From NCBI RefSeq assembly GCF_003258365.1, contig NZ_QHKM01000003.1, positions 62,001 through 126,000 of the forward strand: a DNA stretch of 64,000 nucleotides, given 5' to 3'. The notes beneath the pieces are model-generated. The model ran no database searches. It was not told the DNA's origin and saw only the letters and a program-made list of their open reading frames with translations. Every line of letters starts with the position of its first letter. Position 1 is the first letter of the stretch. This document shows, in pieces, positions 46,339-48,699 of this stretch. Source of the DNA: Hymenobacter edaphi (lineage in GTDB: Bacteria > Bacteroidota > Bacteroidia > Cytophagales > Hymenobacteraceae). Both the position numbers and the translations under genes were made by a program.

Positions 46339-47703
46339 ATGAAAAAACTGCCGCTGCTGCTGCCCGCCGCCCTGTTGCTGCTGGCTGCGTGCAATCAGAA
46401 CGCCAAAACCGCCGAAACTTCCACGCCCGCCCCGCCGCCCGCCACCGCCGATACCGCAGCCACGGCCCAAACGCTGGAACTGCCCCCGCCCAACGCCACC
46501 AAGTCCGTCACCAAGCGCGTCGACATCATTGACTGGCCCGCCGGCAAGACGCCCGTGGCCCCGGCCGGCTTCACCGTCACCAAGTACGCCGACGGCTTCG
46601 AAGGCCCGCGCTGGCTGTACGTGCTGCCCAACGGCGACGTGCTGGTGGCCGAAGCCAGCACCATCCCGACGACTACCAAGAAGAAAATTGCCGCCGAGCT
46701 GAACCTGGACAAGTCGCGGAGCCTGCGCGAGAGCAGCGCCAACCGCATTACCCTGCTGCGCGACGCGAACAAGGACGGCCGACCCGAGGTGCGCCAAACT
46801 TTCCTGACCGCGGCCAACGGCCTCAGCCAGCCCTTCGGCATGCTCCTGCTCGGCGACTATTTCTACGTGGCCAACACCGACGGCGTGCTCCGCTTTCCCT
46901 ACCAAGCCGGCCAGACCACGCTCAGCGGCGCGGGTCAGAAAATCATGACCCTGCCCAAGGGCGGCTACAACAACCACTGGACCCGCAACCTGCTGGCCGG
47001 AGCCGATGGCAAGAAGATTTACGTGTCGGTGGGCTCGGGCTCCAACGTGCAGGAGCACGGCGAGGCCAACGAAATCCGGCGGGCCAGCATCCTGCAGATC
47101 AACCCCGACGGCTCGGGGGAAAAGGTGTACGCCAGCGGCCTGCGCAACCCCGTGGGCATGGCCTGGAACCCCGTCACCAAGCAGCTGTGGACGGCCGTGA
47201 ACGAGCGCGACGAGCTGGGCGACGACCTGGTGCCCGACTACCTGACCAGCGTGCGCGAAGGCGGCTTCTACGGCTGGCCCTACGCCTATTTCGGCCCGCA
47301 CGAAGACCCGCGCCGCCAGGGCGAGCGGCCCGATCTGGTGCAGAAAACCATCGTGCCCGAGGTGCCGCTGGGCCCGCACACGGCCTCGCTCGGCCTCGCG
47401 TTCTACGACGCCAAGGCCTTCCCCGCCAAGTACCAGGGCGGCGCCTTCATCGGCCAGCACGGCTCCTGGAACCGCTCGGCCTACTCGGGCTACAAGGTGG
47501 TATTCGTGCCCTTCCGGGGCGGCAAGCCCAGCGGCCCGCCCGAAGACTTCCTGACCGGCTTCCTGGCCGGCGGCGAAAAAGCCTACGGCCGCCCCGTCGG
47601 CACCTTCGTGGCGCCCGACGGGAGCCTGCTCGTGACCGACGACGCGGCCAACACCATCTGGCGCGTGGCCGCCAGCGGCGGCACGGCGGCCGGCAGCCGG
47701 TAG
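46339..47703 (+). CDS. PQQ-dependent sugar/sorbosone dehydrogenase-like lipoprotein
   Basis: 454 residues with a lipoprotein signal peptide (LLPAALLLLAACNQ, lipobox Cys at about residue 18). After an Ala/Pro/Thr-rich linker (20-50) there is a beta-propeller of the glucose/sorbosone dehydrogenase family, with FEGPRWLYVLPNGDVLVAEA, GGYNNHWTRNLL, YVSVGSGSNVQEHGEANE, ILQINPDGSGEKVYASGLRN, GMAWNPVTKQLWTAVNERD and GGAFIGQHGSWNRS. PQQ ligand positions are plausible but cannot be proved by reading. It is a membrane-anchored relative of the T9SS-sorted enzyme at 21778. Just downstream lies a MITE-like repeat. Confidence 0.88.
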   Translation: MKKLPLLLPAALLLLAACNQNAKTAETSTPAPPPATADTAATAQTLELPPPNATKSVTKRVDIIDWPAGKTPVAPAGFTVTKYADGFEGPRWLYVLPNGDVLVAEASTIPTTTKKKIAAELNLDKSRSLRESSANRITLLRDANKDGRPEVRQTFLTAANGLSQPFGMLLLGDYFYVANTDGVLRFPYQAGQTTLSGAGQKIMTLPKGGYNNHWTRNLLAGADGKKIYVSVGSGSNVQEHGEANEIRRASILQINPDGSGEKVYASGLRNPVGMAWNPVTKQLWTAVNERDELGDDLVPDYLTSVREGGFYGWPYAYFGPHEDPRRQGERPDLVQKTIVPEVPLGPHTASLGLAFYDAKAFPAKYQGGAFIGQHGSWNRSAYSGYKVVFVPFRGGKPSGPPEDFLTGFLAGGEKAYGRPVGTFVAPDGSLLVTDDAANTIWRVAASGGTAAGSR

Positions 47704-47719: not shown

Positions 47720-47896
47720 TCCTGAGGCGTGGCCGAAGGACCTTCCTCGCACCCTGCACCAACTGAGAAGCGCAGCCACCATGCCCAATCGTCCGGGCAA
47801 AGTGGCTGCGCTTCCGTGTTTCCGGAAAAGCGCCGGCGCTTCGTAGGCAGCGGCAGTGCAGGTTACAAGCACGGTCCGGCGCTGCGTTCAGGATGA
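47720..47896. repeat. MITE-like dispersed repeat, copy 2
   Basis: Bases 47722-47816 match, in the opposite orientation, the reverse complement of 1889-1985 over most of the length, sharing GAAGGACCTTCCTCG, AACTGAGAAGCGCAGCCACC and GTGGCTGCGCTT. The right end (GCGCTGCGTTCAGGATGACA, 47879-47898) matches the inverted terminus of copy 1. The middle (47820-47870) is not conserved. It lies between the sugar dehydrogenase gene and the promoter of the riboswitch. Confidence 0.72.
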
Positions 47897-47906
47897 CAAA
47901 CAATGA

Positions 47907-47936
47907 TTGCAGAGCGTCAACTTCGGCCTACCTTGC
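47907..47936 (+). promoter_or_regulatory. Promoter of the riboswitch transcript
   Basis: TTG (47907-47909), 19 bases, then TACCTTGC (47929-47936): a close fit to the Bacteroidota TTTG-N19-TAnnTTTG promoter. The first base of RNA would be near 47945, just before the aptamer. Confidence 0.65.
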
Positions 47937-47963
47937 GGCCAGTTCTTTGCCATTCCGCAATTG

Positions 47964-48140
47964 CCGTAGAAAGGTGCCGGGCTCCCGAGTCCGGCTGAAA
48001 AAGGAACCGTGTGTGATTCACGGGCTGACGCGCAACTGTAAGTAACACCCCGCGGGCGGCCCCCGCCGGCCATTGCTCCGCTTGCCGGAGTGAGAAGGCC
48101 GGCCGCCCCGTTACAAGCCAGGAGACTTGCCTACCTACGA
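47964..48140 (+). promoter_or_regulatory. Cobalamin (B12) riboswitch aptamer
   Basis: The conserved core can be aligned base by base with known cobalamin riboswitches: GGAACCGTGTGTGATTCACG (48003-48022; P3 stem CCGTG/CACGG), then GCTGACGCGCAACTGTAAGT (48024-48043), then CCATTGCTCCG ... CGGAGTGAGAAGG (48070-48098), and AAGCCAGGAGACTTGCC (48115-48131), which matches the conserved AAGCCnGGAGACCTGCC. Adenosylcobalamin or related corrinoids bind and usually switch off downstream expression. The downstream gene, 170 bp away, is an acyl-CoA thioesterase, which is not a standard target. Confidence 0.88.
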
Positions 48141-48265
48141 CGTGACGCGCGCTTCCGCGACCTGAAGCTGCCGTCGGGCCAATTGATGCCGCCCTGCTGC
48201 GGCCGGGGCTGGTGTGCCCGGGCCGGGGCGGGCGCGCGTCCGTGCGGGCCCGGGGCAGAGCAGCA

Positions 48266-48304
48266 GGGGAGGGGCGCGGCCGTTGCGGCTTCCCCCCATT
48301 TTTA
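48266..48304 (+). terminator. Possible expression platform: hairpin plus ATTTTTA
   Basis: GGGGAG (48266-48271) can pair with CTTCCCC (48289-48295), with an inner GGCCG/CGGC stem, then ATTTTTA follows. It lies only 5-40 bp before the thioesterase start, so it could switch by termination or by hiding the ribosome-binding site. The fold is approximate. Confidence 0.45.
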
Positions 48305-48309
48305 CCTGC

Positions 48310-48699
48310 ATGACTCCGGACCTCGCCCCGCGCATTGCCGCCGCCGAAACCCGCCTGTTCAAGGCCGTTTTTCCCAACACCACCAACCACTACGACACGC
48401 TCTTCGGCGGTACGGCCATGCAGCTCATGGACGAAGTGGCCTTCATTGCCGCCACCCGCTTCAGCCGCAAGCGCATGGTCACCGTCTCCTCCGACCGCAT
48501 CAACTTTCGCATGCCCATTCCGGCCGGCACCATCGTCGAGCTGATCGGCCGCATTGCGCGCATCGGCACCAAAAGCCTCGACGTGGCGGTGGACATTCAC
48601 ATCGAGGAAATGTACTCCGACGTGCGCCTGCACGCCGTGTCGGGCACGTTCACCTTCGTGGCCGTCGACGAGCACAAGGTGCCCGTCAGCGTGCTGTAG
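48310..48699 (+). CDS. Acyl-CoA thioesterase (hotdog fold, YciA/BACH-like)
   Basis: 129 residues from ATG 48310. The hotdog thioesterase of the BACH/YciA type is identified by NTTNHYDTLFGGTAMQLMDE (nucleophile/general-base Asp at about residue 40, family motif N...YGTLFGG...MDE), the VSSDRINFRMPIPAGTIVEL strand and FTFVAVDE. It releases CoA from medium- or short-chain acyl-CoA. Length is normal for a single-domain family member. It is the only gene downstream of the cobalamin riboswitch. A longer open frame from 48214 is GC-rich and unlike a protein, so it is not used. Confidence 0.9.
   Translation: MTPDLAPRIAAAETRLFKAVFPNTTNHYDTLFGGTAMQLMDEVAFIAATRFSRKRMVTVSSDRINFRMPIPAGTIVELIGRIARIGTKSLDVAVDIHIEEMYSDVRLHAVSGTFTFVAVDEHKVPVSVL

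Follow-up and report, generated by a model that had tools for sequence, protein, structure and literature searches.

A cobalamin riboswitch ahead of an acyl-CoA thioesterase gene in Hymenobacter edaphi: a possible third response to B12 shortage

Why should a cobalamin riboswitch stand directly ahead of a gene for an acyl-CoA thioesterase? The question is raised by a locus in a 64-kb stretch of the Hymenobacter edaphi genome (the window; positions at the locus are counted from its first letter). According to a cobalamin-regulon survey, in which Bacteroidaceae were the only Bacteroidota sampled, the targets of these switches fall into four classes: B12 synthesis, B12 transport, cobalt transport, and isozymes (PMC3766115). 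An earlier note on this DNA had called the target unusual, and a thioesterase indeed belongs to none of the four as given there; its associations, described below, are with the isozyme class. The features of the locus are as follows.

46339-47703: sorbosone-dehydrogenase-like gene, upstream of the riboswitch
47722-47814: palindromic dispersed repeat with 13-bp arms (GAAGCGCAGCCAC/GTGGCTGCGCTTC)
47929-47936, + strand: Bacteroidota-type -7 promoter element, TACCTTGC, recognized by sequence 5' of the aptamer
47955-48148, + strand: cobalamin riboswitch aptamer RF00174 (cmscan match to model positions 1-189 of 189)
about 48115-48131, + strand: conserved B12 box, AAGCCAGGAGACTTGCC, within the aptamer
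48151-48168, + strand: hairpin GCUUC-CGCGACCU-GAAGC directly 3' of the aptamer, with a covarying stem, candidate P13/L13
48169-48309, + strand: G+C-rich remainder of the leader, poorly conserved in a genus alignment, containing the hairpin and ATTTTTA claimed earlier
48310-48699, + strand: hotdog acyl-CoA thioesterase gene (4HBT, PF03061), 129 aa
from 48811: DedA-family gene, about 110 bp downstream of the thioesterase gene

The well-conserved aptamer proposed in the earlier note was borne out by the Rfam covariance model, which matches at full length with 92.7 bits (gathering score 31.5) and an E value of 9.9e-22; cmscan gave no other Rfam match in the 64-kb window. The promoter proposed there is likewise credible. 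The element TACCTTGC matches the -7 consensus of Bacteroidota, and TAnnTTTG-like elements recur in relatives at equal spacing ahead of the aptamer. A weak -33-like TTG lies at 47907-47909, a part that relatives do not conserve. A generic sigma-70 scan of the leader region called no promoter, as is expected for Bacteroidota. The aptamer is predicted to bind B12, and B12 would repress the thioesterase gene.

That gene is the next open reading frame after the riboswitch (ATG at 48310, stop at 48699), and its assignment as an acyl-CoA thioesterase agrees with a PF03061 match at E 2.4e-16 (60.3 bits against a cut-off of 20.6). The product, predicted to hydrolyse acyl-CoA, carries the motif TNHYDTLFGG...MDEVAF of a cobalamin-linked subfamily, in which the GG corresponds to G33 and G34 and the Asp at the catalytic position to D41. 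This Asp is kept in 36 of the 42 domains of the clade and is missing from the other six. Relatives in the PDB, found by sequence search, include 2GVH, 2EIS, BACH/ACOT, and YciA, with 2EIS (Thermus TTHB207) as the top single-domain match (E 8e-38). The YciA equivalog NF007970 scores 48.1 bits and does not reach its curated cut-off of 162. Double-hotdog versions, as in PDB 2GVH, occur in alpha- and betaproteobacteria (L269:5989-6780, L272, L277:4941-5747).

It is plausible that the thioesterase is the only gene of the riboswitch transcript, given that DedA has a -7-like element of its own (TAGCTTTG-like) in the roughly 110 bp that separate the two genes. On the upstream side, the palindromic repeat has 42 matches at roughly 30 genome sites and a further copy at 1886-1966 of the window, and it may also end the transcript of the upstream gene. 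The suggestion that this repeat had deleted the switch's own gene did not hold up, because nothing ties an element dispersed over about 30 sites to the riboswitch-thioesterase unit, and we rejected it as a cause of the arrangement.

Downstream of the aptamer lies a candidate expression platform that differs from the one first proposed. Just 3' of the aptamer, all family leaders examined have a short hairpin capped by a CGCG loop. In 58 family leaders (37 distinct hairpins) the loop is invariant and the stem covaries, changing on both arms (GCUUC/GAAGC, GCUUU/AAAGC, GCCUU/AAGGC, GCCCC/GGGGC). Over the 37 distinct hairpins, mean pairing is 4.81 of 5, compared with 3.92 ± 0.11 when arms are shuffled between genomes and with a maximum of 4.35 in 2000 arm swaps, a difference inflated by the kinship of the genomes and further by picking the stem with the best pairing in each leader. 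The hairpin at 48151-48168 is a candidate P13/L13 of the expression platform. Its CGCG loop could pair with UGUG of aptamer loop L5 (4 bp, wobbles included), and its likely role would be a kissing loop with L5, as described for known cobalamin riboswitches (PMC2258182). The hairpin plus ATTTTTA just before the start codon, by contrast, finds no support as an intrinsic terminator. No terminator was called on the + strand at the leader, 48230-48309 shows no folding beyond that of shuffled sequence (z = 0.12), and the T-rich stretch ahead of the ATG shows no hairpin and T-run shared by relatives, in which the end of the leader is rich in pyrimidines or in A+T and has no hairpin in common.

Is the pairing of switch and gene more than an accident? 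Hotdog thioesterases are common, and a different contig of H. edaphi encodes one more, so a general enzyme with a riboswitch nearby by chance has to be considered. No more than two cobalamin riboswitches occur in the 6 Mb of this genome, and we therefore estimate a chance match within a few hundred bases upstream at about 1 in 10,000 per genome. (The second, at 143731-143953, 34 kb away, precedes a TonB receptor gene, G000:C28:141620-143614, - strand; L003:15620-17614.) Among 150 Hymenobacteraceae-like genomes, a close thioesterase is present in 73, and RF00174 lies directly upstream in 62 of these (riboswitch and thioesterase coordinates were matched and the loci scanned), although the genomes are related and the 62 pairings are not 62 events. 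One further genome (G137) has the order riboswitch-metE-thioesterase, and in 10 of the 73 no riboswitch was found near the thioesterase. This synteny, the check the earlier note had called for, led us to reject chance, which has next to no probability. Other cobalamin riboswitches in the family stand ahead of a TonB receptor gene, of btuFCD or cbi genes, or of metE.

Comparison beyond the family shows the company that the gene keeps. In a sample across the Bacteroidota, RF00174 scored above its cut-off in 19 of 40 thioesterase-bearing genomes, on the same strand and within about 6 kb upstream of the thioesterase (three more scored below the cut-off), and these genomes span nine family groups. 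Operons were compared in this sample and in a set of named genomes. A subset of the Bacteroidota operon riboswitches was checked with Rfam and the others were recognized by a B12-box pattern. The order riboswitch-metE-thioesterase occurs in Pedobacter, Mucilaginibacter, Spirosoma, Thermoflexibacter, and Muricauda, and the direct pair in Pontibacter, Chryseobacterium, and Tenacibaculum. Deep relatives have riboswitch-nrdB-nrdA-thioesterase, in one case with metE first; in two examples of this order (group f36) the riboswitch scores just below the cut-off. Mixed operons include genes for proteins of the PP-loop, BtuF-like, TonB, or Cys-rich kind. One Cys-rich product, small and with the pattern CPRC...CQC, is often encoded behind the riboswitch or metE and ahead of the thioesterase (L157, L166, L178, L179, L190), and in Flavobacterium a PP-loop ATPase-like gene lies between riboswitch and thioesterase (L181:5188-5970, L247). 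The locus in CP034120.1 (L157) is named Glaciecola amylolytica but looks like Bacteroidota, and the label is probably wrong.

Loci from other phyla were drawn from annotated plasmids. Thermus has riboswitch (RF01482/RF00174)-thioesterase-nrdB-nrdA, Azospira riboswitch-thioesterase-nrd, and Shinella riboswitch-metE-thioesterase-riboswitch-nrdHIEF. In Sphingomonas, riboswitch-thioesterase lies opposite a riboswitch-DUF1852-methionine synthase pair, and Novosphingobium has riboswitch-DUF1852-methionine synthase (MesX/MesD)-thioesterase-acnD-prpF-prpC-prpB; DUF1852 and its partner form a B12-independent methionine synthase (PMC7857596). Paracoccus has thioesterase-prpD-prpC-prpB, where the riboswitch scan found none, and Deinococcus has thioesterase-nrdI-nrdE-nrdF, where the Rfam scan gave no riboswitch. 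At the last arrangement, as seen in Deinococcus radiodurans MP1 (L266:6950-11138), a diverged switch or another regulator may act. As shown by this comparison of gene order, the thioesterase belongs to one set with metE and class I nrdAB, which encode B12-independent replacements. The recurrence of the pairing in several phyla, often with B12-replacing enzymes, suggests an unrecognized third response to B12 shortage.

Trees bear on how the H. edaphi unit arose. The operon thioesterases form one group in the protein tree (42 rows; 81/80 support on a branch of 0.61) that excludes the ordinary thioesterase paralogs of the same genomes, with the reservation that this support is moderate and that some branches in the outgroup are long. 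In the leader tree, the H. edaphi leader is sister to those of metE within its family (91/89), and no metE was found in the H. edaphi genome. Most simply, then, the unit probably descends from riboswitch-metE-thioesterase by loss of the metE between switch and thioesterase. Thioesterase leaders of another genus (g5) cluster with the btuFCD leader type (99/99); with two leader types in one family, the thioesterase has gained control by a B12 switch there at least twice.

This history settles the idea of an orphan switch only in part. The own gene of the switch was probably lost, as had been suggested, and it was probably metE; a deleted btuB was rejected, since the leader branches with metE leaders and no relative was found that keeps, after this aptamer, a btuB-type gene deleted only in H. 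edaphi. What fails is the notion of decay: that the thioesterase is an old member of the cobalamin-riboswitch regulon is strongly supported by the operon and tree comparisons, and with direct pairing in 62 genomes the unit is no decaying orphan. A related possibility is that deletion of metE simply left the thioesterase under the remaining switch, with no selection for its control by B12. The branching with metE leaders and the absence of metE would fit. However, the thioesterase itself sits in riboswitch-metE-thioesterase operons, the direct pair and the covarying hairpin have been kept across those 62 of 73 family genomes, and another lineage of the family shows a different leader type. We consider such a leftover very improbable.

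What, then, would the enzyme do when B12 is short? H. edaphi encodes methylmalonyl-CoA mutase and MetH. In none of the 150 family genomes, H. edaphi included, did PrpD score above cut-off, so disposal of propionyl-CoA through the methylcitrate cycle is probably missing. When B12 is short, propionyl-CoA and methylmalonyl-CoA should accumulate. We propose, with a probability of about 0.6, that the thioesterase is one arm of a B12-shortage module that relieves failure of the mutase by hydrolysing these two compounds. With adenosylcobalamin plentiful, the ligand would bind the aptamer, the hairpin at 48151-48168 would lock onto it, and the thioesterase would be off; with B12 short, the gene would be on. 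With the mutase lacking its cofactor, the breakdown of odd-chain substrates, valine, isoleucine, methionine, and threonine would leave propionyl-CoA and methylmalonyl-CoA to accumulate and sequester CoA; by hydrolysing them, the thioesterase would return free CoA and an exportable acid. In the full module, MetE would stand in for MetH and class I ribonucleotide reductase (RNR) for class II RNR; easing the loss of the mutase would fall to the thioesterase. The loss of metE in H. edaphi would leave the two-part riboswitch-thioesterase unit. That the same holds more widely, with cobalamin riboswitches of at least three phyla controlling a dedicated thioesterase subfamily that guards the CoA pool when the mutase lacks B12, we would put at even odds.

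The operon partners fit, since they include replacements for two other B12 enzymes and, in two alphaproteobacteria, a B12-free route for propionyl-CoA. The role under B12 shortage and mutase stall suggested in the earlier note thus gains support from recurrent operons with metE, class I RNR, and methylcitrate genes. Propionyl-CoA or methylmalonyl-CoA as substrate, suggested by this gene context, has points against it as well. Relatives of the hotdog fold are often broad in substrate. Of 80 genomes tested, thioesterase-bearing or not, 78 encode methylmalonyl-CoA mutase, and an enzyme so nearly universal in the sample makes co-occurrence uninformative on substrate. The two genomes without mutase (G506, G151) retain the thioesterase, not behind a riboswitch, so the enzyme can have another use; and half of the family has no thioesterase despite the absence of PrpD, so the relief is dispensable.

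Two other functions should be weighed here. The thioesterase might serve B12 uptake or salvage, or act on an acyl thioester linked to methionine or deoxyribonucleotides rather than on propionyl-CoA. Some Bacteroidota thioesterases adjoin TonB receptor, BtuF-like, PP-loop, or CobT genes and most loci include metE or nrdAB, yet the two alphaproteobacterial operons link the enzyme to methylcitrate-cycle genes, and we know of no step in B12 uptake or salvage, or in methionine or deoxyribonucleotide synthesis, that needs an acyl-CoA thioesterase; we regard this as rather unlikely. Alternatively, the enzyme might belong to the B12-shortage regulon and yet not serve CoA rescue: an idle mutase might send propionyl-CoA into fatty-acid synthesis, with FabH and the thioesterase tuning the primer pool. 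A FabH (KAS III) gene does separate metE from the thioesterase gene in Pedobacter and in one Mucilaginibacter, but most operons, that of H. edaphi included, have none, and partnership with metE, nrdAB, and prp genes indicates replacement of the cofactor, which makes such lipid remodelling distinctly unlikely.

The thioesterase as a target of cobalamin riboswitches is provisionally new. Full-text literature searches turned up no naming of it, and none appears in the available parts of PMC3766115, PMC2258182, PMC9600662, PMC9723704, PMC8620254, and PMC7857596; Vitreschak 2003 and Rodionov 2003 lay outside this scope, and an earlier mention is possible. If true, a thioesterase conserved as a target would extend the roles of cobalamin riboswitches to metabolite detoxification, and would give a function and a testable substrate to a subfamily whose solved structure, 2EIS, is labelled a hypothetical protein. 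Methylmalonyl-CoA and propionyl-CoA also accumulate in human B12 deficiency, to which the control proposed here would be a bacterial parallel.

Among the closest known systems are the nrdAB riboswitches, such as the one ahead of Streptomyces nrdABS that Borovok reportedly described in 2006 (cited in PMC8620254). There too the switch fronts a B12-independent replacement enzyme, and the thioesterase shares nrdAB operons in several phyla; unlike nrdAB, it cannot catalyse the reaction of the B12 enzyme concerned, the mutase, and would relieve that enzyme rather than replace it. The metE riboswitches (e.g., of Priestia megaterium; PMC9600662) are of the same RNA family and likewise have a target that is needed when B12 is short, whereas the H. 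edaphi target is an acyl-CoA thioesterase in a genome without metE. The mutA riboswitch of Veillonella parvula (PMC9600662) also ties this riboswitch family to methylmalonyl-CoA chemistry, although there the B12-dependent mutase gene itself lies behind the switch. With YciA- and BACH-type thioesterases (2EIS, 2GVH, 1YLI), finally, the H. edaphi protein shares the fold family and the positions of the GG and the catalytic Asp, and it differs from them in the motif TNHYDTLFGG, in its separate clade, and in a score below the cut-off of the YciA equivalog.
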